Below are positions 49,645-60,721 of a stretch of DNA of 64,000 nucleotides, piece after piece. Origin of the DNA: Agarivorans sp. Alg241-V36 (GTDB lineage: Bacteria; Pseudomonadota; Gammaproteobacteria; Enterobacterales; Celerinatantimonadaceae); assembly GCF_900537085.1 (NCBI RefSeq), contig NZ_UNRE01000004.1, forward strand, positions 1 to 64,000. The letters run 5' to 3'. A program made the position numbers and the translations under genes. Position 1 is the first letter of the stretch, and each line of letters begins with the position of its first letter. Below the pieces are notes generated by a model. The model saw only the letters and a program-made list of their open reading frames with translations, was not told the origin of the DNA and did no database searches.

Positions 49645-52600
49645 ATGAAGGACCAGCATGTATTTAAAGCGCGTAGAAACTATAACCGCTGGGTAGCCAA
49701 CCAAACTTTAGAAGATTATGCCCTAAGGTTTACCTCTAAAAATGCTCGTAAGTGGTCGGTTGCACGCGTCTCCAATACCGCCTTGGGCGCAATATCTTTT
49801 TTAGCCCTAGAAGCCATTGGTGGCGCGCTAATCCTTAACTTTGGTTTTAATAATTCGTTAATTGCCATATTGCTGGTATCGGCAATTATATTTTTCTGCG
49901 GGCTGCCAATCTCATACTACGCTGCACGCTATGGCGTCGACATAGACTTGCTCACGCGCGGCGCGGGCTTTGGCTACATTGGCTCTACCATTACCTCGCT
50001 CATTTACGCCTCGTTTACCTTTATCTTTTTTGCCATTGAGGCGGCCATTATGGCCTCGGCTTTGGAGCTGTTATTTAATATTCCCTTAAGCATTGGCTAC
50101 TTAATTAGCGCAGTTGTAGTGATCCCCTTAGTAACCCACGGCATCACCTTCATCAGCCGTTTTCAACTGTGGAGCCAACCAATATGGCTGGTACTGCAGG
50201 TGGCGCCGCTAATTTTTATTTTGTGGCATGAGTCCAGCGCCATTAACAACTGGTTACAGTTTGAAGGCAAGCAAGAGAGCGGCAGTTCGGGGGAATTTAA
50301 CCTGCATTTATTTGGTGCAGCATCGGGGATCTTATTCTCGTTAATGGCGCAAATTGGTGAGCAAGTAGACTTCTTGCGTTTTATGCCCGAAGCCAAGAAA
50401 AAACATCGTGCCTGTTGGTGGGTAGCGCTGTTATCGGCAGGCCCCGGATGGATTATTGTTGGTGCACTTAAAATCCTCTTAGGATCGTTTTTAGTGGTAC
50501 TAGCCATTAATGCCGGAGTGGCCGAGGATGTGGCCGGAGATCCTATTCAAATGTACCAGGTGGCCTTTTCCTACATGGCCCAATCTCCTCTGCTTGCGCT
50601 CTCCTTGGCGGGTATTTTTGTTTTGGTTTGTCAGCTTAAAATTAACGTAACGAACGCCTATGCCGGCTCTATCGCCTGGTCAAACTTCTTCTCTCGCTTA
50701 ACCCATAGCCACCCAGGTCGCGTAGTGTGGCTGGTATTTAACGTGATTATTGCCCTGCTGATTATGGAGCTAGGCATCTATGCCGCGTTAGAAGACATCC
50801 TCGGCATTTACTCGAATGTGGCGGTTGCTTGGGTTGGCGCATTGGTGGCGGACTTAGTCATCAACAAACCCTTGGGTTATAGCCCCAAGCACATTGAATT
50901 TAAACGTGCTCACCTCTACGACATCAACCCTGTTGGGGTTGGCTCAATGGTGATAGCCTCTGTTTTGAGTATTTATTGTTATACCGGAAATGCTGGTGAC
51001 ACCGCCCAAGCACTGGCGCCTTATATTGGCTTAAGCACGGCTTTTGTATGCTCTCCCATCATCGCCATTTTAACCAAAGGCCGCTACTACTTAGCGAGAG
51101 AGCCCGATCTACCGCAGGCCCACCAAGGGGAATGCACGGTTTGCCAAAATCATTTTGAAATAGAAGACCTTGCCAGCTGCCCAGCCTATGGCGGCGCAAT
51201 ATGCTCGCTATGTTGCACCCTAGATGCACGCTGCCATGATCAATGTAAAGAAAACGCCCGCTTTGGTCAGCAACTAAGTCAATTTGTTAGCCTGGTGCTT
51301 CCTAAAGCAGTGTCATCCTTAATGAATACTCGCCTGCTGAATTTCTCTGGCTTAATGGCGCTCATTGCCTTGCTGATTGCCAGCTTGTTTTACTTAGTCT
51401 ATTCGCGGATCCCAGTAACCGAATTTGCCACTAAAGTGGCAGTGTCGGCAACGCTTAGCCACGTATTTTTCTTATTGATGATTATTGTTGGCGTGCTGGT
51501 TTGGCTATTTGTTTTAGCCAACGACAGCCGCCAATTTGCATTAGATGAATCGCAGCGCCAAACCGAGTTACTTAGCCGCGAGATATCTGCCCACGAGGTT
51601 ACCGACCAAGCCTTGCAGCAGGCCAAAGAAACGGCCGAATCAGCCAACCAAGCTAAAAGCCGCTACCTCACTGGCATTAGTCATGAGCTTCGCACCCCGC
51701 TTAACTCGGTGCTGGGTTACGCACAGCTCTTAGAAAAATCGCCAAGTTTAGCACCCGAGCATAGCGCCAAAGTCTCGCTTATCAAACGCAGCGGCGAACA
51801 CCTCGCCGACATAATTGAAGGCCTATTAGATATCTCGCGCATCGAGGCAGGCCGCATCGAATTACAACGTGACGAAGTGGCCATTGGTGAATTGCTGGAT
51901 GACTTGGTAGATATGTTCAGCCTTCAAGCCAAAAGCAAAGGCATTTCCTTCGTTTACAATCCCAGCCCTTACCTGCCCAACTGGGTAACCGCAGATGAAA
52001 CTCAACTACGGCAAATACTCATCAACCTGTTGTCCAACGCAGTTAAGTTTACCCAACAAGGTTCAGTAACCTTAGACGTTTATTACCGTAATCAAGTCGC
52101 AGAATTCACCATTACCGACAGCGGCGTAGGCATTAGCGAACAAGATATCGAGCGAATATTCAAACCCTTTGAGCGAGTAGAGAAAAGGGACATACCCAGC
52201 TCTCCTGGCACCGGCCTAGGCTTAACCATTACTCAGTTGCTTACCGACATAATGGGTGGAAACATTAGTGTAAGCAGCGAGATTGGCAAAGGTAGCAGCT
52301 TTAAACTGAGCATAATGCTAGCTAGCTTAAACAAAGAGCAGCAGCCGAAATCTGTGCAAGCGCCAGTAAACTCAATCAAAGGCCCTAGCAAAACCGTAAT
52401 GGTGGTAGACGATGACCCTAATCACCGTAACTTAGTATCAGAAATACTCTCGCCGCTGGGCTTTGTGGTTCATGAAGCCAACGATGCTTTGTGTTGTTTA
52501 AGCAATACCTACTTAAGTGCCATTGACCTGTTTTTGCTCGACATATCCATGCCCGATATGAATGGCTGGCAACTACTTAAAAAACTTCGTAGCAATGGCA

Positions 52601-53022
52601 TTAGTGTACCGATCATCATGGTGTCGGCCGATGCCACAGAAGCGCCTTATTTCAATGCCGCTGAAGAAATTCACGAGCCAGCATTGCACAACGACTACCT
52701 GGCTAAGCCAATGCGCGATAACGCGCTACTGGAAAAAGTTGCCAAAGCCTTAGCCATAGATTGGAACTACCAAAACACCCATACGCAAAGCGCCTCGCCC
52801 GAGTTGCAAGCGCCAAACATTCAACTAAACCAAAGCCAGCGCGAACAGCTGCAAGAAATAGCCGAAATGGCACAACTTGGCTTTGTACAAGGGATTGATA
52901 GGCTAATAAAAAACCTAGAGAAAGACAGCGCGTTACACACCATTACTCGCGCCCTAAGAAAGGAATTAGAACAGTATCAATTTGCCAGCATTACCGCTTA
53001 TTGTGAAAAGGTCGTAATCTAA
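49645..53022 (+). CDS. hybrid sensor histidine kinase with NCS1 permease-like sensor
   Basis: A 1125-aa inner-membrane hybrid kinase. Residues ~10-475 form an NCS1 nucleobase/hydantoin permease-like module (R-V-S-N-T-A, F-F-C-G-L-P-I-S-Y-Y-A-A-R-Y-G), with ~12 membrane helices. A Cys-rich segment (C497-V-x-C, later C-S-L-C-C and C-H-D-Q-C) looks like a metal or redox site. Two more membrane helices, a coiled coil, HisKA (phospho-site H680 in HELRTPLN), HATPase_c (N-box LINLLSNAVKF) and REC (D922-D924, phospho-Asp D966) follow. The last ~65 residues are helical with no HPt-type His. It is divergent from urtA, and its stop overlaps the next start (TAATG). It may sense nucleobases, hydantoins or amides and control urt-fmd; this is inference. 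Confidence 0.9.
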   Translation: MKDQHVFKARRNYNRWVANQTLEDYALRFTSKNARKWSVARVSNTALGAISFLALEAIGGALILNFGFNNSLIAILLVSAIIFFCGLPISYYAARYGVDIDLLTRGAGFGYIGSTITSLIYASFTFIFFAIEAAIMASALELLFNIPLSIGYLISAVVVIPLVTHGITFISRFQLWSQPIWLVLQVAPLIFILWHESSAINNWLQFEGKQESGSSGEFNLHLFGAASGILFSLMAQIGEQVDFLRFMPEAKKKHRACWWVALLSAGPGWIIVGALKILLGSFLVVLAINAGVAEDVAGDPIQMYQVAFSYMAQSPLLALSLAGIFVLVCQLKINVTNAYAGSIAWSNFFSRLTHSHPGRVVWLVFNVIIALLIMELGIYAALEDILGIYSNVAVAWVGALVADLVINKPLGYSPKHIEFKRAHLYDINPVGVGSMVIASVLSIYCYTGNAGDTAQALAPYIGLSTAFVCSPIIAILTKGRYYLAREPDLPQAHQGECTVCQNHFEIEDLASCPAYGGAICSLCCTLDARCHDQCKENARFGQQLSQFVSLVLPKAVSSLMNTRLLNFSGLMALIALLIASLFYLVYSRIPVTEFATKVAVSATLSHVFFLLMIIVGVLVWLFVLANDSRQFALDESQRQTELLSREISAHEVTDQALQQAKETAESANQAKSRYLTGISHELRTPLNSVLGYAQLLEKSPSLAPEHSAKVSLIKRSGEHLADIIEGLLDISRIEAGRIELQRDEVAIGELLDDLVDMFSLQAKSKGISFVYNPSPYLPNWVTADETQLRQILINLLSNAVKFTQQGSVTLDVYYRNQVAEFTITDSGVGISEQDIERIFKPFERVEKRDIPSSPGTGLGLTITQLLTDIMGGNISVSSEIGKGSSFKLSIMLASLNKEQQPKSVQAPVNSIKGPSKTVMVVDDDPNHRNLVSEILSPLGFVVHEANDALCCLSNTYLSAIDLFLLDISMPDMNGWQLLKKLRSNGISVPIIMVSADATEAPYFNAAEEIHEPALHNDYLAKPMRDNALLEKVAKALAIDWNYQNTHTQSASPELQAPNIQLNQSQREQLQEIAEMAQLGFVQGIDRLIKNLEKDSALHTITRALRKELEQYQFASITAYCEKVVI

Positions 53023-53930
53023 TGAACGCCACAAACTCAAAGGGACTAATCCTCGTTGTTGACGATGCTACCGAATCGGTGGCGATGCTTAACACCGCTT
53101 TAATTGAACAAGGCTACACCGTATTAATTGCCATGGATGGGCAACAAGCACTCAACATTAGCCAACGCATTACTCCAGACTTAGTACTCATGGACGCATT
53201 AATGCCGAATATGGACGGTTTTGAAGCCTGCCAGCAACTAAAACAAAATACTCAACTCAGCGATATTCCAGTAATTTTCATGACTGGATTAAGCAGCAGT
53301 GAGTCGGTGGTTAAGGGCCTAGAATCTGGCGGAGTAGACTACATCAACAAACCAATAAAACTTGATGAACTATTTGCCCGCATAAAAGTACATATTAGCA
53401 ATGCTCGCCTCACCCGCAGTGCCCATGGTGCCCTAGATGAAATAGGCCAAGCTAGCTTTACCGCCAATAGCCGAGGCGAAATGATTTGGGTAAGCGCCAA
53501 AGCAAGCGAAACACTGGCATCGCAGGAGGATTTACCTGCCACAGCAGCCGAGGTGATTAGCCCTCAACTTAAGCAGTGGTTAGCCTATACCCCAGCTAAA
53601 CACAGTATGCTATCGCTTAAAAACCTCAATACTGCACTGCAGCTGCGTTATTTGGGTCAGTCATCACCAGGGGAACACCTGCTGCGCCTAGTAAATAACG
53701 ACGACTAAAGCCAGCGCGAGTCTTTGCGCCAGCGCTTCAGCTTAACCGAGCGAGAATCAGAAGTGGTGCTGTGGCTAGCACGGGGGAAAACCAATCGAGA
53801 AATCGCGCAAATTTTAGACATGAGTCCACGAACCGTAAACAAACACCTTGAGGCGGTATTTCACAAACTTGCAGTAGAAAACCGAACCAGCGCAACGGCG
53901 GTTTGCTTAGCTCACTTAAACGACAGCTAG
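53022..53930 (+). pseudogene. LuxR-family response regulator gene interrupted by an in-frame stop
   Basis: Codons 1-228 encode a REC domain (D14-D15, phospho-Asp D58 in LMDALMPNMDG, K in NKPIKL) plus a linker. A TAA at 53706-53708 stops the frame. The same frame continues without frameshift into a complete LuxR/GerE helix-turn-helix: LTERESEVVLWLARGKTNREIAQILDMSPRTVNKHLEAVFHKL. The full product would be ~302 aa. TAA lies in a hydrophilic linker where CAA (Gln) would fit. Alternatives are a free REC protein plus an internal TTG-started DNA-binding domain (53724), or readthrough. It is coupled to the upstream kinase by TAATG. Similar kinase-regulator pairs are known, and the ligand here is unknown. 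Confidence 0.8.
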
Positions 53931-54097
53931 CTTAAAGCTCGCGGCTACTAAAGCGGTTTAGCTCGCCTTAACTTAGGTGCCGCCCAATTGCTTTGCTGTA
54001 AACAAATGCAGACTACACACAGCAACTCGCTAGCAGCTAAATAGCGTTTTTGTGCACTTAAATTTTAAAAATCTCCCTGCCCGCACTACGCTTATTA

Positions 54098-54360
54098 GGG
54101 TCTGTTGAACTTTCGCGGTTAAATTTTGTTCGAGATAAAATCGTTTTAGGCGCGGCAAGGTGTGTGCTGCTTAGTTATTCTAAGCAAATACTCCTTAACA
54201 AAGCATAAAGCGATTTTAGCCGAACCCTTCGGGCAGTGTTTGTGGCTCATTTCTACTGCGTTATCGGCTTCTCATGTAGCTTAGCTACACATCAAAGCGT
54301 TTGGCTGAATAAATAAGCCACAAACTGCTGCAAAAATCAGCTCGAAAGATCCACAGACCC
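54098..54360. mobile_element. MITE-like element, 263 bp, flanked by TA
   Basis: Terminal inverted repeats of ~22 bp: the left end starts GGGTCTGTTGAACTTTCGCG and the right-end complement starts GGGTCTGTGGATCTTTCGAG (about 3 mismatches). Both ends are flanked by TA (54096-54097 and 54361-54362), the target duplication of IS630/Tc1-mariner elements. An inner pair GTTTGTGGCT (~54238) / AGCCACAAAC (~54315) makes a hairpin. No transposase is encoded. It ends ~20 bp before the PP-loop gene pair and so occupies its promoter position. Repeats with a similar end sequence may occur in other marine gammaproteobacteria (recollection, unchecked). Confidence 0.75.
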
Positions 54361-54379
54361 TAGTCAGCAAGGAGGCTTT

Positions 54380-55519
54380 ATGAAGATTTCCCAAATCCGC
54401 ATTGAGCAGCACCCCGACCACGCCATTCTTCGGGCCGATTGCGCTGGCTTCGACTTATGGTATAAATTCCCCGCCCCGCTACAGCCTCGTTTAAGTGCCG
54501 ACCCATTTATTGCCGCTTGCCTGCTGATTTGCATGGCAAAAAACCAAAACTTAGAAATAGAAGCTAGCGCCAACTACTCCCCCATCTTGCTAAACAACCT
54601 CGAACAGCTACAAAACATTTTTGCTTATTGGCAAGACTACCTTGGCCACACCATGCACCATATTAAGATAATGGGCGGAACCGCCAAGGAAGAGCCTTTT
54701 CCCTGCAACGATAAGGTGTCGTTTTTCTCCGGAGGCGTCGACGGTTACCACACCTACCAACAAAACCAGCAAGACATTGATTACCTGCTGTTTGCCAAAG
54801 GCATTGATATGCAACTGTCGAGTGATACCCTCTATCAGCACGCCTTTAACAGCAACAAAGACTACTTACTCAGTAAACATAAAACCCTATATCCCATAGA
54901 AACCAACGTGAGATTTCTTGGTTACCATAACCAACTTAAATGGGGAGTGTGTTTTGGCGGGGGCCTATCTAGCATCGCCTTAGCATTGGGGGTTAAAAAG
55001 TGTTACATCGCAGCCGGCCTAACCTATCAAAACAACATCCCAGAAGGTTCCAACTACATTACCGACCATTTGTGGAGTAATCATCAAACCCAAATTGTCC
55101 ATCACGGTGCCAATGTAAAACGTATCGACAAACTAAAAGAACTCACCAATGATCCTGAGTTCTTAGCCATTCTAAGGGTTTGCTGGCACGACCATGGCTA
55201 CAACTGCGGCGAATGCGAGAAATGTTTGCGCACCATGAGCAGCCTGCGTTTATTGGGTATAGAAACCGATACCTTCCCTACGCTGAGTGACCACTTAGTT
55301 AAACATAAACTGCGAGATCTAAAGCTGTACAACATTCACGATGTGCAGTTTCTTGAAGAGAACCTCGACTTAGCCATCGCAGTAAATGACAGTGTGATGA
55401 TAGAAGCCCTGCAGCACATCAAACATAATTTTGAACTGCGCGCCTTAATCAAACAAGCCGATGAACTTATCTTGCATGGTTATGCTCACAAACTAAAACA
55501 GCTGATTGCGCGGCACTAA
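54380..55519 (+). CDS. QueC-like PP-loop protein A (function unknown)
   Basis: I do not recognise a named family. The 379-aa product has an N-terminal domain (~1-105), then a PP-loop-like motif F-F-S117-G-G-V-D-G122. A Zn site follows, C268-x7-C276-G-E-C279-E-K-C282-L-R-T. Both motifs resemble QueC (7-cyano-7-deazaguanine synthase) and other adenine-nucleotide alpha-hydrolases. The last S of SGGxDS is Gly here, and the protein is longer than QueC (231 aa). GGAGG lies 6 nt before the ATG. The stop overlaps the next start (TAATG). The two proteins are paralogues with nearly the same motif spacing. Asparagine-synthase-like or nucleotide-modifying roles cannot be separated by eye. Confidence 0.65.
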   Translation: MKISQIRIEQHPDHAILRADCAGFDLWYKFPAPLQPRLSADPFIAACLLICMAKNQNLEIEASANYSPILLNNLEQLQNIFAYWQDYLGHTMHHIKIMGGTAKEEPFPCNDKVSFFSGGVDGYHTYQQNQQDIDYLLFAKGIDMQLSSDTLYQHAFNSNKDYLLSKHKTLYPIETNVRFLGYHNQLKWGVCFGGGLSSIALALGVKKCYIAAGLTYQNNIPEGSNYITDHLWSNHQTQIVHHGANVKRIDKLKELTNDPEFLAILRVCWHDHGYNCGECEKCLRTMSSLRLLGIETDTFPTLSDHLVKHKLRDLKLYNIHDVQFLEENLDLAIAVNDSVMIEALQHIKHNFELRALIKQADELILHGYAHKLKQLIARH

Positions 55520-56766
55520 TGAAAATTCAGCAACTTAGCTTAGAGAAAACCGAAAAATACCACAAACTATCGGCCATGCTGGGCCCCTTCCCCTTATGGT
55601 TTAAAACCAGCAGCGATTGCCTAATTGCCTGTAACGATGCCAGTCCATTTTTATGCTCCGCGCTGATTCCTGCGATGTTTATGGGCGAAGATATCGAAAT
55701 TGATCGCCAATACTATGTATCGGCCAGTTTGTTAGCAAAACTGCCAGAGATCCAAACCATGATGCACGCTTGGAACCCCATCTTTAAGCCCATTAAAGTT
55801 ACCGCCAATACCCAAGTATTTAAGCCCTCTGCTAGCCAACTGGGTGACAGCGCTTTTTTCTCTGGCGGGGTAGATGGCACCTACAACCTTATTAAGCATC
55901 AAGAGCAGCTCGACAACTTAGTTCTCATTAATGGCTTCGACTTCTCAATGCCCCAGCACTCCTGGCAACAGCTGGTTGCCCGCTGCCAAAAAACCGCCAA
56001 GCTGTTTAACAAAAAGCTCATTTGCGTAGAGAGTAATTTAAAAGAATTTACTGGTTGGACAGGCCTAGCCCGCTTCGCCAACTTTGGCGCGTCCTTAGCC
56101 AGTGTTAGCTTACTGCTCAACCCCAGCAGCATGACCATAAGTGGCGCAGTAACCTTTGATGCAATTAATCCCTCTAACAGCCACCCCTTGTTAGACCCTT
56201 TGTGGTCGAGCGAATCGTGCAGAATTTTGCACCTTGGTTTAGAAGCCGACCGAGCCGCCAAAATAGCCTTAATAAAACACTACCCAGAAGCCTTAGATAA
56301 CCTTTGGGTATGCTGGGAAGACCCAAGCAGCAATTGCGGACGCTGCTCCAAATGCCACCGCACTTTTATGGCTTTGCAGCTTAATAACATTTCCCACTTT
56401 CAGTTCTCCCAAGAAGTAGAGTTTTCCGCACTAAGCAAACTCAGCCCTAAAAGTGACGAAGACTTATCCTTTTACGAATACCTCTACCAGCTAGCCATTA
56501 AGCAACATAATCGCCAGCTAAACCGAGTACTGCGCAAAATCATCTGGCGTTATCGCGCCAAAGCCTTTCTGCGCGAAACCGACCGCTTACTGCTTCACTC
56601 GCTATGGAGCAAATGGCGACGCAAAACGGTGGCTCAGCACCAGCTGGCCGATGTTAGCGTATTTCCTAAATACAGTGACGCTATCCAACTAAAGTTACTG
56701 CAGCAAAGGCTTAAGCAGCATCCAAAGTTTATATCTAGCGCCAACATCGGCAGTATTTACGATTAA
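55519..56766 (+). CDS. QueC-like PP-loop protein B (paralogue of the preceding gene)
   Basis: Also unassigned. The 415-aa product repeats the layout of protein A: an N-terminal domain, F-F-S115-G-G-V-D-G120, and a Zn-like motif C265-x7-C273-G-R-C276-S-K-C279-H-R-T. The motif spacing is 150 residues, against 151 in protein A. A ~65-residue basic C-terminal tail (W-R-Y-R-A-K-A-F-L-R, W-S-K-W-R-R-K) is extra. Translation is coupled to protein A by a TAATG overlap, so the two are probably made in a fixed ratio and may form a heterodimer (inference). No queuosine pathway gene (queD, queE, queF) is adjacent. It is convergent with the SRPBCC gene, 2 bp apart. Confidence 0.65.
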   Translation: MKIQQLSLEKTEKYHKLSAMLGPFPLWFKTSSDCLIACNDASPFLCSALIPAMFMGEDIEIDRQYYVSASLLAKLPEIQTMMHAWNPIFKPIKVTANTQVFKPSASQLGDSAFFSGGVDGTYNLIKHQEQLDNLVLINGFDFSMPQHSWQQLVARCQKTAKLFNKKLICVESNLKEFTGWTGLARFANFGASLASVSLLLNPSSMTISGAVTFDAINPSNSHPLLDPLWSSESCRILHLGLEADRAAKIALIKHYPEALDNLWVCWEDPSSNCGRCSKCHRTFMALQLNNISHFQFSQEVEFSALSKLSPKSDEDLSFYEYLYQLAIKQHNRQLNRVLRKIIWRYRAKAFLRETDRLLLHSLWSKWRRKTVAQHQLADVSVFPKYSDAIQLKLLQQRLKQHPKFISSANIGSIYD

Positions 56767-56768
56767 GC

Positions 56769-57254
56769 TCATGCGGCATTGGCCGCACTAAACGACAAAC
56801 CTTCGACTCGAGTTTTTATCGCCGAGGCTGTTTGCGGTAACGAGCCCTTAAGCTTTTTACGCATCACCAAGGCGTGTAGCAAACGGCCAAACAAGCCAAA
56901 ACGAAGATCGTAGCTCAATACAATATTTACTCGGCTATTCTCCCCTACTTTTTCAATCCACCAGCTGCTATGGCCATGATTTAAAGGGCCAAGCGGAGAA
57001 ACGTTATACACAAACCCTTGCCCTTCCGACCACTGGGTAATGTACTCATCTATTTCGCCAAAACCTTGCAAGGCGCAATGTCTGCCTGCTCCCACGCCTA
57101 AGTCGGCGCGACCAATTGGGTGAGAGGCGGTTACACCGGGTGCCCACGCCACATTGGTAAAATCCCCTATCACCGCCCAAACCTGCTCAACTGGTGCGTT
57201 TATATCTACCGACGTTTCAACTTTGTATTTGCCTTTAAGATAAATGTTAATCAT
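56769..57254 (-). CDS. SRPBCC (START/polyketide cyclase-like) family protein
   Basis: A 161-aa protein with the SRPBCC pattern: K-V-E-T-S-V-D-I-N-A-P-V-E-Q-V-W-A-V-I-G-D-F at the start, then W-A-P-G-V, a central beta-sheet and a long C-terminal helix. The family binds hydrophobic ligands in a deep pocket. No specific ligand or reaction can be assigned. It is divergent from a LysR-type gene, which probably controls it. Confidence 0.75.
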   Translation of the reverse strand: MINIYLKGKYKVETSVDINAPVEQVWAVIGDFTNVAWAPGVTASHPIGRADLGVGAGRHCALQGFGEIDEYITQWSEGQGFVYNVSPLGPLNHGHSSWWIEKVGENSRVNIVLSYDLRFGLFGRLLHALVMRKKLKGSLPQTASAIKTRVEGLSFSAANAA

Positions 57255-57320
57255 CCCTTTCTCCTTAAATAGTTGGCACTAACACAAAAAATAGATTGCT
57301 CATTTATGCTAGCCCGCGTA

Positions 57321-57332
57321 ACCAAGCTTGGT
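57321..57332. promoter_or_regulatory. palindrome between SRPBCC gene and LysR gene
   Basis: ACCAAGCTTGGT is a perfect 12-bp palindrome in the 174-bp divergent region. It could be a LysR operator, which typically lies in such a gap. It lies 67 bp upstream of the SRPBCC start and 97 bp upstream of the LysR start. Confidence 0.4.
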
Positions 57333-57428
57333 AAGAAGCAATAAATCCAACTATTGGTGCAAAAATTATCCACCTCATAAACACCAAGGTCAGCTAGGCT
57401 TAAGGTTTGCAAATTATTAGAAAACAGC

Positions 57429-58328
57429 ATGAACTGGGATGATTTAAAGTACTTCTTGGCGGTATGCCGCAACGGCTCAATTAGAGCCGCAGCCACCGAG
57501 CTACAGGTTAACCACGCTACGGTGTCGCGCCGTATCAACAGCTTTGAGGCCTCTTTAGGCCGGCGACTATTTGAGCGAAGCCCCCAAGGTTACCAATGCA
57601 CTGCCATGGGAGATGAAATTTTTGCAGAGGCCGAAAAACTCGAACAAAGCCTAAAAGCGGTAGAGCGCAGAGTAGCGGGCAACGATGCCAGCATGGTAGG
57701 CGAAATAAGAGTCACCAGCCATCAAATTATTGCCGAGCATTTGTTAATGCCAGCAATAGCCGAGTTTTGCCAGCTCTATCCCGACATTCATATCGAAATT
57801 ATTGATTCTTTCAAACTGCTTAGCATTAGCAATCGCGAAGCCGACGTAGCCTTTAGGCTGTGCGACTCACCACCAGAACACTTAATTGGCCGCAAGCTCG
57901 CCACCATTCACCGCGCCTGTTATATCGCGGCCAACAAGCAAGCTAAACTTGCAGACCCTACATGGCTAGCCCAGCAAAACTGGTTAGGTTGGTCCGACAA
58001 ACAACAACGACCAATAGGAAAAATTGCCAAAAGCTACCCCAAATTAGTATCTCGCCACAAACTGCTTAGCCCCAGTTTGCAAGTAGCAGCCTGCAAACAA
58101 GGAATGGGCGTGGCCATATTGGGCTGCTTTATTGGCGATACCAGCAAAGACTTAGTGCGTATACCGCCCTATTTGTCGGTGCCCAAATATGACCTTTGGG
58201 TACTCAGCCACCCAGACCTACAGCAAAACAAAAAAGTGTTAACCTTTGTACGCTTTATGACCCAAAAGATCCTCGCCCAACGCGAGCTAATCGAAGGAAA
58301 GCAATTTACAACACCAAGCAGCGATTAA
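57429..58328 (+). CDS. LysR-family transcriptional regulator
   Basis: A 299-aa LysR protein with a winged-helix N-terminus (M-N-W-D-D-L-K-Y-F-L-A-V, N-H-A-T-V-S-R-R-I-N) and substrate-binding domain. It is divergent from the SRPBCC gene and probably controls it, as is common for LysR pairs. The N-terminus resembles YafC/DsdC-neighbour type LysR proteins, but no target-specific feature is visible. The 217-bp gap after it (58329-58545) holds no gene I can support. Confidence 0.85.
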   Translation: MNWDDLKYFLAVCRNGSIRAAATELQVNHATVSRRINSFEASLGRRLFERSPQGYQCTAMGDEIFAEAEKLEQSLKAVERRVAGNDASMVGEIRVTSHQIIAEHLLMPAIAEFCQLYPDIHIEIIDSFKLLSISNREADVAFRLCDSPPEHLIGRKLATIHRACYIAANKQAKLADPTWLAQQNWLGWSDKQQRPIGKIAKSYPKLVSRHKLLSPSLQVAACKQGMGVAILGCFIGDTSKDLVRIPPYLSVPKYDLWVLSHPDLQQNKKVLTFVRFMTQKILAQRELIEGKQFTTPSSD

Positions 58329-58626
58329 GCACTGTTACTAACTTGGCATTGCCTAGGCACAACGCACAGCCACCAACTACCCGCACATTTTGTCTTCCTT
58401 AAGATCGCAAAACACTGTAGCTAACTACAGATTGCGTTTCCTTGCTTCCACAATTACTTTCCTTATGGCTAGCTGATGTTTTTGTTACTTTTAGAGCTAG
58501 GTGGCTGATGTAGCTTAGGAAAGGTGGTAATCTGGTTTTTGTCATATGAATAAAAAGAGGGGATGCTCCTTGTTTCAACAAGGAAGTTTTCTCTTAATGA
58601 GCTGTTATCCGCTAGAAGGAGGTTTA

Positions 58627-59394
58627 GTGAATCTAATTTCAAAGAGAATTATACAAGTCATTTTGTCTAAGCCAGCACCTATGCAAATCCCTCGGACGGG
58701 CGAACGTGCTAAGTCTGTAGATTGCAACGTACTTTATGTTAGAACTAAGGACGAGTCTTGGTCAATGCTAATTGATAGTGCAAATGACAAAGGGTTAAGC
58801 GGTAAGAAGTGGCAAGGGGAGCAAACAGATGATATAGCATCTATAGATTATCAAGAACTAAAAAATTCAAACACTTACCTCGACATTACACATTTTTATA
58901 ATATTTATGATTTTAAATTCTCTAGCCTAAAAGCGTATTTTTTTAGGTCCATACTTCCCATAAATAAGTTTAGAGTTCTTCTTGATAAGGCAGGGATATT
59001 TGCAGCCAATAGAAAGAAATTGGTTCGCACAGAGCGAATGGAAACTTTGCAGCTAATTCTTGAGAGAACCATTGATGATATGAATTATAAAGTCAATGCA
59101 GTTTCAATGATGAACTTGTTGCATTCTCAAATATGGGTTTATCACCCTGATAGAAATAGACAAATTTCTTATAACGATTTGCTTCTTAAATCATTGATGA
59201 AAACTGGTGAATTAAAATTAGTTGATGGCAGTTACCAAATCACAGAGATTGCTCTCGACACTCTTTCTTCGCATGAACTCGAGTTAAAAAAGCACAAACA
59301 AACACTAAATCAAGCAAAGGCTATTACGTGGTTAACACTGGTCTTGATTGTTGTCGGGGTCATACAGGCCTTTGTCGCATCTAAATCAGGTTAG
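58627..59394 (+). CDS. cassette-like hypothetical protein with C-terminal membrane anchor
   Basis: A protein of unknown family, AT-richer than its neighbours. The start GTG at 58627 (AAGGAGG just upstream) gives 255 aa; an ATG at 58546 without a ribosome-binding site would add 27 residues. The middle is globular and basic. A winged-helix-like segment (S-Y-N-D-L-L-L-K-S-L-M-K-T-G-E-L, then G-S-Y-Q-I-T-E-I-A-L-D) precedes a coiled helix, and one membrane helix (W-L-T-L-V-L-I-V-V-G-V-I-Q-A-F-V) lies at the very C-terminus, a tail anchor. An attC-like element follows 7 bp after the stop. Confidence 0.6.
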   Translation: MNLISKRIIQVILSKPAPMQIPRTGERAKSVDCNVLYVRTKDESWSMLIDSANDKGLSGKKWQGEQTDDIASIDYQELKNSNTYLDITHFYNIYDFKFSSLKAYFFRSILPINKFRVLLDKAGIFAANRKKLVRTERMETLQLILERTIDDMNYKVNAVSMMNLLHSQIWVYHPDRNRQISYNDLLLKSLMKTGELKLVDGSYQITEIALDTLSSHELELKKHKQTLNQAKAITWLTLVLIVVGVIQAFVASKSG

Positions 59395-59400
59395 CTAAGT

Positions 59401-59432
59401 CGCATAACAAACGCTTCAAGCGGGCGTTATGT
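59401..59432 (+). other. attC-like recombination site
   Basis: CATAAC-AAA-CGCTT-C-AAGCG-GGC-GTTATG is an imperfect palindrome of 29 bp: outer 6-bp arms, inner 5-bp arms and a 3-nt internal loop. The left half CATAACAAACGCTTCAAG and the right half GCGGGCGTTATG resemble the two ends of Vibrio-type integron attC sites with the long middle missing. It falls exactly between two same-strand ORFs, where cassette junctions lie. No integrase is in the window. Confidence 0.5.
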
Positions 59433-59447
59433 CTATAAAGGAAGCTT

Positions 59448-60191
59448 ATGAGTAAAGTTAGAATCAAGCTAGTATCGATTGGGCACTTACCTTTGGAGTT
59501 CCAGTCAAAAAAAATTAAGAATTGGTCGTCTAAGACTTTCGAGGTTGTCGAGGATGTCGACAACTACTCGCTTCGTTGTGACTCTGATGGTTTTGATTGG
59601 GAGTTCTCCGATAGTGCAGTAAAAGGACAACTCCCTAACCTGTTTAATGCTGACTTTATGATCGCTATTGTAAACGTTCCAATTGAAGACAACTGGTATT
59701 CGAGAAGGCTCGGAAATAATCAGATTGTATTTACGTTTCATCAAATCAAAGACATCCTCGAACACTACAATATTCCGCTAGAAAATGTTGTTTACCGTTT
59801 ACTATATGCTTACACGCTTTTGTATCGGCGCACGGGAAACAAGATCCCTGATTTTGATGAGGCGCCAGGTTTTACCCACGACGAGACGCGTGGATGCCTC
59901 TTTGACATGAATGGCATAAAGACCGATCTAGTCGCTTCTTGCCATAACCCACAAATATGTGATGAGTGCCAAGAGAGATTGAAGCAGGAAAGAGTATCTA
60001 AATCTGATATTGATAACACCCAAAGTGACATTAAACGCATCAAAAAAGATTTATATTTCAGAATAATTGGTCACGTAAAAAAGCATCCTATTGCAGCACT
60101 GGTTTTATCTAGTATGTTTGCATTAATGCTTGGTATTACCGGCTCAGTCACCGGTTCGTTTGTTTACGAATATCTAAAGAGCCGAGCATGA
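59448..60191 (+). CDS. cassette-like hypothetical protein with zinc-ribbon-like Cys and C-terminal membrane anchor
   Basis: A 247-aa protein of unknown family, AT-rich. AAGGAAG lies ~4 nt before the ATG. A globular part with W-Y-S-R-R-L-G-N-N-Q-I-V-F-T-F-H is followed by H-D-E-T-R-G-C150-L-F-D-M-N-G, then C165-H-N-P-Q-I-C171-D-E-C174, a plausible Zn site. The C-terminus holds a membrane segment (A-A-L-V-L-S-S-M-F-A-L-M-L-G-I-T-G) and a short charged tail. It resembles, by layout, membrane-anchored defence or stress effectors, but I assign no function. It is on the same strand as its cassette-like neighbours. Confidence 0.6.
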   Translation: MSKVRIKLVSIGHLPLEFQSKKIKNWSSKTFEVVEDVDNYSLRCDSDGFDWEFSDSAVKGQLPNLFNADFMIAIVNVPIEDNWYSRRLGNNQIVFTFHQIKDILEHYNIPLENVVYRLLYAYTLLYRRTGNKIPDFDEAPGFTHDETRGCLFDMNGIKTDLVASCHNPQICDECQERLKQERVSKSDIDNTQSDIKRIKKDLYFRIIGHVKKHPIAALVLSSMFALMLGITGSVTGSFVYEYLKSRA

Positions 60192-60228
60192 GGCAACCAA
60201 GACATAATAATCACAGGTACAGTGACAG

Positions 60229-60250
60229 CTTTTCGTTGCGGGCGTTAACC
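60229..60250 (+). other. right-half attC-like sequence
   Basis: TTTTCGTTGCGGGCGTTAAC resembles the 3' part of an attC site (GCGGGCGTTA core) and is followed by the next ORF, as at cassette junctions. A matching left half (RYYYAAC type) is not obvious upstream, so this may be decayed. Confidence 0.35.
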
Positions 60251-60270
60251 TTATAAAACAAAGAACTGAT

Positions 60271-60618
60271 ATGCCATTAAAACTAGAAATAAAATCAATA
60301 ATTAGTCCCGATTTAGACTTTGGTAAAACACCGATGGATCCAGATATCTGTGCAGTATTTATTGAGGTCGAAATTGGGGAAAGAAACAGAGAAAGCTGTG
60401 ATATTTTTAGCTTCACTGCTATCACAGCAAAGTTTATGACTGCTAATCCAGTGACAAGTTGGGGCCGTGGCTACTTATTGATGGAGTCTTTCTCGTGGTC
60501 AGGAGTAGAATTAATGCTTAATAAACTACTTAGTTTTGTGCGTGCAGAAACCTGGGATGGAGTAGTACAGAACCTAACTAAAGAATTGCACTGGGAATAT
60601 GATAATTACCAACCGTAA
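60271..60618 (+). CDS. Imm8-like immunity protein, cassette-like
   Basis: A 115-aa acidic protein with the look of immunity protein 8 (Imm8) family members: a beta-strand start (M-P-L-K-L-E-I-K-S-I-I-S-P-D), E-S-C-D-I-F-S-F-T-A near the middle, a helix-strand core, and Trp near the end (W-D-G-V, W-E-Y). Imm8 proteins counter contact-dependent or polymorphic toxins. No toxin gene is adjacent. Proteins of this type are often carried singly in integron cassettes, where they may act as immunity factors against neighbours. Confidence 0.6.
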   Translation: MPLKLEIKSIISPDLDFGKTPMDPDICAVFIEVEIGERNRESCDIFSFTAITAKFMTANPVTSWGRGYLLMESFSWSGVELMLNKLLSFVRAETWDGVVQNLTKELHWEYDNYQP

Positions 60619-60721
60619 AACTGCTAACGGGGCTTTTTTAACCAACACATGAAGTTGCTCCAATTAAATAAGCATTTCACTAAAACAAAATTAGTTAATG
60701 ACCTCACTTGAAAAAGCTAAC

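Follow-up and report, generated by a model that had tools for sequence, protein, structure and literature searches.

The window, by which we mean the whole 64,000-nucleotide stretch of Agarivorans DNA analysed here, contains two adjacent genes, which we call A and B. Their features are the following:

54369..54379, forward strand: ribosome-binding site region of gene A, AAGGAGGCTTT, 5' of the ATG (from sequence)
54380..55519, forward strand: gene A, encoding a 379-aa PP-loop protein of the QueC/QatC superfamily (ORF, AlphaFold2, VIA-align)
54722..54745, forward strand: PP-loop of A, FFSGGVDG, residues 115-122 (from sequence; S, G and D conserved family-wide)
55181..55225, forward strand: zinc-type motif of A, C268-x7-C276-x2-C279-x2-C282 (from sequence; the four Cys and N275 invariant)
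55519..56766, forward strand: gene B, encoding a 415-aa paralogue of A (ORF, AlphaFold2, VIA-align)
55855..55878, forward strand: PP-loop of B, FFSGGVDG, residues 113-120 (from sequence; S, G and D conserved family-wide)
56311..56355, forward strand: zinc-type motif of B, C265-x7-C273-x2-C276-x2-C279 (from sequence and family alignment)

Both reading frames are open and intact, in agreement with the first-pass annotation, which had described a coupled PP-loop pair with a TAATG overlap. The overlap amounts to one base, the last base of the A stop codon TAA (55517-55519) being the first of the B ATG, and the ATG of A is preceded by a strong ribosome-binding site, AAGGAGG. A and B are 28% identical over 383 aa (E 1e-43). 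Each protein carries the loop FFSGGVDG and, about 150 residues beyond it, the motif C-x7-C-x2-C-x2-C, just as that annotation had read them. Protein A consists of an N-terminal domain (residues ~1-105) and the PP-loop core (~107-300), followed by C-terminal helices.

Orthologous A+B pairs occupy the corresponding site in three further genomes of the Agarivorans group, with A identities of 88, 74 and 72%. The closest named relative found was Agarivorans sp. Toyoura001 (74% for A), and a search of genome contigs with A as the query returned one very close relative only. The TAATG overlap was not kept in the three other genomes, where A and B are separated by 5, 8 and 5 bp. Calculated from unsaturated dS only, dN/dS was 0.08 for A and 0.06-0.09 for B; the two genes are under purifying selection and are therefore real and maintained. 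These ratios, together with the orthologous pairs in three genomes and the residues invariant across ~77 relatives, exclude chance. The pair is accessory within the genus: it was absent from two genomes of the same genus (G003 and G004), and in another (G001) a truncated B alone was left at the site.

Positions 54090-54368 hold an element of ~270 bp whose terminal inverted repeats are imperfect (GGGTCTGTTGAACTTTCG...) and which ends just 5' of the ribosome-binding site of A and has 25 full or partial matches across the same genome. It is a MITE-like repeat that may affect the promoter of the operon. The stretch 49645-53708 further upstream holds the gene of a 1125-aa protein in which a long N-terminal half, by eye apparently membrane-embedded and transporter-like, is fused to a histidine kinase and a receiver; a receiver-domain gene comes after it, and genes for a urea/amide-type ABC transporter and formamidase-like genes adjoin. 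On the other side, what separates the pair from the ABC-transporter genes (56769-60620) varies among sister genomes (L023-L026), and this region looks like an insertion hot spot. In one of the sister genomes (L025) the variable stretch holds an FRG-domain gene matching the candidate defence family PDC-S15. PADLOC returned no match for the window genes downstream of the pair, two of which (58546-59394 and 59448-60191) also had no Pfam match and encode proteins with, by eye, a hydrophobic C-terminal stretch each. The pair in the window is an orphan at a strain-variable site.

We predicted the structures of A and B with AlphaFold2 from an alignment of the window proteins with Agarivorans and viral-contig relatives. 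The pLDDT was 92.6 for A and 83.3 for B, the last ~40 residues of B being uncertain, and both models showed a PP-loop core plus an extra N-terminal domain. In VIA-align searches the top match was QatC for A (Z 14.2, 289 aa, rmsd 4.8) as well as for B (Z 15.3, 283 aa, rmsd 4.5). Both alignments started at residue 1, so the N-terminal extension is probably common to QatC and the pair. QueC came second (Z 11.2 for A and 13.6 for B, over ~180 residues); Cap9 scored Z 10.9 and 13.0, other PP-loop enzymes Z 8-10 and ArtA Z 7.9-8.2. The two models superposed on the cores of QueC, QatC, TilS, LarE and MnmA. Foldseek gave zero matches at E<=0.001 against the PDB, the top rows being aldolases with TM <0.16, that is, noise; against viral models its named top matches were phage 7-cyano-7-deazaguanine synthases (best E 8e-6). 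Profile-profile comparison of the family with QueC yielded E 1.4e-8 and a probability of 95.5% over a span from the PP-loop to the Cys motif. The same comparison with QatC was weak and limited to the Cys motif, because only three QatC sequences were used, and a profile search of PDB sequences gave weak matches only, all of them to PP-loop enzymes and at the loop. In both proteins SGGVDG stands at the start of the Rossmann-like core, where the superfamily has its SGGxDS-type loop, with Gly in place of the last Ser. Structure prediction and profile comparison thus bear out the QueC-like PP-loop fold proposed earlier. A and B are almost certainly members of the PP-loop superfamily, and they belong to an undescribed subfamily within the QueC/QatC group of PP-loop ATP pyrophosphatases.

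Across ~77 relatives the invariant or nearly invariant positions, in A numbering, are the loop S-x-G-x-D, G141, R248, K251, C268, N275, C276, C279 and C282. Every one of them is present in A and in B, so neither protein resembles an obvious pseudoenzyme. The four-Cys site is probably a structural zinc site. Members at six loci had no SGGxD loop recognisable by pattern, four of them on viral contigs (L095, L097, L098 and L101) and two elsewhere (L039 and L047); the Cys motif was kept in all of these but L039, and L097 (603 aa) has an additional N-terminal part.

Relatives were sought in about 1280 genomes and also in plasmids and viral contigs, those outside Proteobacteria via plasmid and viral records. 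These searches gave some 80 distinct members, and the family extends over Proteobacteria, cyanobacteria, Bacillota, haloarchaea and phages; its hosts include Gammaproteobacteria, other proteobacterial groups, Azospirillum, Gemmobacter, Gloeothece, Nostoc, Priestia and Halorientalis, in addition to viral contigs. For 16 of the 71 members in 45 genomes, a gene for a polysaccharide pyruvyl transferase (PF04230) lay no more than 3 kb away, when 0.22 were expected from its genome-wide frequency; this is only 23% of members, and the count includes sister species and represents roughly ten independent lineages. The PF04230 gene was adjacent or one gene off in Gloeothece, Azospirillum, Gemmobacter and Priestia (on plasmids) and in G008/G009, G026, G691 and G1097. 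A Pfam tally of 139 neighbour proteins from 39 loci was led by Glycos_transf_2, PF04230 and the Wzx-type flippase, followed by ATPgrasp_ST, Asn_synthase, polysaccharide deacetylase and FemAB-type GNAT, and exosortase genes were close to members at three loci (L040, L064 and L071). We found no literature tying QueC or PP-loop proteins to PF04230 genes. No glycan gene stands beside the pair in the window, and members at four other loci (L033, L041, L063 and L065) are orphans of the same kind. The statement that the pair has no known partner pathway therefore holds for the window site and fails for the family, in which surface-glycan genes recur; a link between the family and such genes is likely.

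The genome itself provides an example. It encodes a third member (C4:449515-450666, or L022:8989-10191) with the loop FSAGVDS, situated within a large exopolysaccharide cluster that has a flippase, glycosyltransferases and an acyl-CoA-ligase-like gene, with a PF04230 gene 2.8 kb off. Each of the seven genomes of the genus has a further family member outside the pair site, and another Agarivorans cluster that holds the third member (L030) has a UDP-sugar dehydrogenase gene.

Family members were also found beside phage genes on IMG/VR contigs. These viral members were detected with two DNA patterns for the Cys motif, which outdid the locus search; with B as the query, the latter returned nothing from viral contigs. 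At L088 the member lies antisense between tail-fibre and endolysin genes, with a baseplate gene upstream; at L089 and L090 it adjoins genes for tail-fibre or J-like proteins, at L091 and L100 tail genes and lysis or moron genes are close by, and at L098 a PF04230 gene follows directly behind it. The contigs of L086 and L091 may include some host DNA. The interval between tail and lysis genes is a typical position of phage accessory genes, and genes of this sort often serve to change the surface glycan.

Neighbouring family members are found in other genomes as well, so the homologues are not always single. Some are recent duplicates, 48-71% identical (Priestia, G306, G1057 and G881), and others are old, divergent pairs, 26-29% identical (Agarivorans, G080 and G151). 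In the phylogenetic tree, whose distant rows were long-branched, A grouped with sequences of G858, G080 and G861 and B with those of G080 and G151. A recent tandem duplication was rejected: the topology with Agarivorans A and B as one clade had an AU p of 0.001. A and B have separate ancestries, and each possesses its own orthologue in another family. G080 has one gene of each type, their 3' ends facing each other across 7 bp, within a cluster of glycosyltransferase, sulfotransferase and FemAB-type GNAT genes, and the A-type gene overlaps the FemAB-type GNAT gene by 4 bp. Since both types are paired again there, their association predates the Agarivorans operon and has a glycan setting elsewhere. 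A-type genes without a neighbouring B-type gene were found in G858 and G861, A-type proteins stand alone at L063 and L064, and in G151 the B-type gene is paired with a different partner. An obligate heterodimer is therefore unlikely for A-type proteins, and a strict one is not required.

PP-loop enzymes adenylate an oxygen of their substrate at the expense of ATP, and pyrophosphate is set free. From this chemistry and the glycan neighbours we infer that the enzymes most likely act on a carboxylate or amide of a surface-glycan precursor, and A and B probably spend ATP on modification of a surface sugar and not of DNA or tRNA. According to the full model, to which we assign a probability of about 45%, each of A and B would bind ATP at its SGGxD loop and adenylate a carbohydrate on the oxygen of a carboxylate or amide, with release of pyrophosphate. 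The target could be a uronic acid, a pyruvate ketal or an acylamino group carried by a precursor of the surface glycan. The carboxylates might come from the products of uronic-acid genes such as those near the third member and from the pyruvate ketals made by PF04230-type enzymes. Ammonia or an amine would then displace AMP to give an amide, an amidine or an amide-linked substituent. In the wider family this would be a step in exopolysaccharide, exosortase-type or O-antigen-like pathways, of which phages would carry an accessory copy. In the Agarivorans-type lineage two differently specialised forms would share one small operon outside the glycan clusters and act in trans; A and B would work on the surface glycan of the cell that encodes them, whether by forming a complex or by serving two related substrates.

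Should this model hold, polysaccharide synthesis in bacteria would include a tailoring step of a new type, and phages would have a way to alter the host surface. A broader version, which we consider rather unlikely, is that a widespread family with the QatC fold caps or amidates carboxyls of surface polysaccharides, often in pyruvyl-transferase pathways, and that temperate phages carry it to alter the receptor glycan of the host. A and B would then be a two-enzyme version, and the QatC defence enzymes a protein-directed branch of a mainly glycan-acting group.

Enzymes of the QueC fold serve in deazaguanine base synthesis and, as found recently, in the activation of phage-defence proteins. The main rival to the glycan model, unlikely in our estimate, is a QatC/Cap9-like function, in which a small molecule, of the deazaguanine type or another, would be joined to a protein at the expense of ATP, perhaps for phage defence or superinfection exclusion. 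QatC is the top solved match to A and B over almost the whole chain, the CDG-binding Tyr/Asp motif is missing in the family as it is in QatC (PMC13279940), members are carried by phages, and in a sister genome the FRG-domain gene, a PDC-S15 defence candidate, adjoins the pair. However, neither A nor B matched any PADLOC model, that of QatC included, at E<=0.1; qatA, qatB and qatD were not among the genes flanking the pair, and no QatC was found elsewhere in the genome at the threshold used. No constant small substrate protein was seen beside members either, the recurrent neighbours being glycan enzymes. The role in DNA modification or defence that had been suggested thus gained neither a partner gene of that kind next to the pair nor a PADLOC match of either protein.

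We regard as quite improbable a peptide or natural-product substrate, with amide or nitrile formation in secondary metabolism. ATP-dependent nitrile enzymes of the same fold exist (QueC/ToyM and ArtA; PMC13060819), and the Gloeothece members lie beside NRPS genes, but the Agarivorans site lacks a biosynthetic gene cluster, and families of this type do not rank with the commonest neighbours elsewhere. On the Gloeothece plasmids (L018 and L079) the family gene and a PF04230 gene stand between glycosyltransferase and non-ribosomal peptide synthetase genes, and the product of these clusters is possibly a glycosylated peptide.

It is more improbable again that A and B are relics with weak catalysis or a regulatory role, encoded by an accessory operon in decay and left with a degraded PP-loop. 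The exchange of the final loop Ser for Gly, the absence or truncation of the pair in G003, G004 and G001 and the repeat element just upstream of A would suit such decay. Against it stand dN/dS values of ~0.06-0.09 and the retention of all invariant loop, R, K and Cys residues in both proteins. Gly at the loop end could reduce activity, but in 71 members with a recognisable loop the last residue was Ser in ~38, Gly in 19 and Ala in 14. SGGxDG is thus no oddity of this pair, and while the Gly noted in the first pass is indeed seen in both proteins, its occurrence, or that of Ala, in about half of the family makes it weak evidence for altered ATP handling.

Least probable of all is the modification of a nucleotide, tRNA or DNA by strict QueC-like chemistry, which the remote homology to QueC would favour. 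Against this reading, the motifs YxQxHxxE, VPxRN and YPDC are absent, a separate contig of the same genome already encodes queC, and no deazapurine or DNA-modification family is among the commonest neighbours.

Compared with QueC (PF06508), A and B share the PP-loop core and the C-xn-C-x2-C-x2-C motif, with a first spacing of x7 versus x8 in QueC, but they are longer by about 160-190 residues and their loop is SGGxDG and not SGGxDS. At the curated PF06508 cut-off of 22 bits A had no match, and B reached 13.5 bits, below it. The QueC substrate motifs YxQxHxxE, VPxRN and YPDC, as described in PMC13329287, were absent from A and from the family consensus in a profile alignment with 12 QueC sequences. 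The genome's own queC is on contig C1, and no queD, queE or other deazapurine gene was found around the pair or among the commonest neighbour families, which confirms the earlier remark that preQ0 genes are lacking nearby. Canonical QueC was accordingly rejected. The group is apparently new, in that none of the members tested reaches the PF06508 cut-off and the available text of a 2026 survey of PF06508 (PMC13329287) describes none such.

With QatC, a component of the qatABCD anti-phage system (PDB 9y01 and 9y02), the pair shares a near-full-length fold, a similar length, the PP-loop and a CGxC-xx-C motif near the C-terminus. The Cys spacing differs, and the TRTTHP motif of QatC is absent from A and B. 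In QatC two Thr replace the CDG-binding Tyr and Asp, and its reaction is unsettled (PMC13279940); in that region the family has a consensus of its own, P-x-G-S-x-P. The QatC fold predicted for A and B does not equal QatC function. A glycan-tied family with the QatC architecture does offer a testable idea on the origin and chemistry of that architecture.

Two further families showed partial likeness. Of 17 family members, 10 matched the profile of DUF6395 (PF19932) weakly (best 7e-5), and A and B did not match it at E<=1; we found no literature on DUF6395. One DUF6395 gene is present in the Priestia plasmid region that carries family members. The QueC-like phage moron phrog_1550 matched B, L090 and L100 in part (E 2e-5 to 5e-4) and A not at all.

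For the proposed chemistry, the enzymes that offer a model are the N-acetyl sugar amidotransferases (WbpG/LpNASAT). No sequence match of A or B to them was found, and their motif CxxC-xn-[GN]xCxxC does not occur in that form in the pair, which has the single tight cluster C-x7-CxxCxxC. By analogy, however, a PP-loop enzyme with a zinc tetracysteine that acts on a surface sugar in O-chain synthesis (PMC10607449) would be the nearest functional counterpart of A and B.
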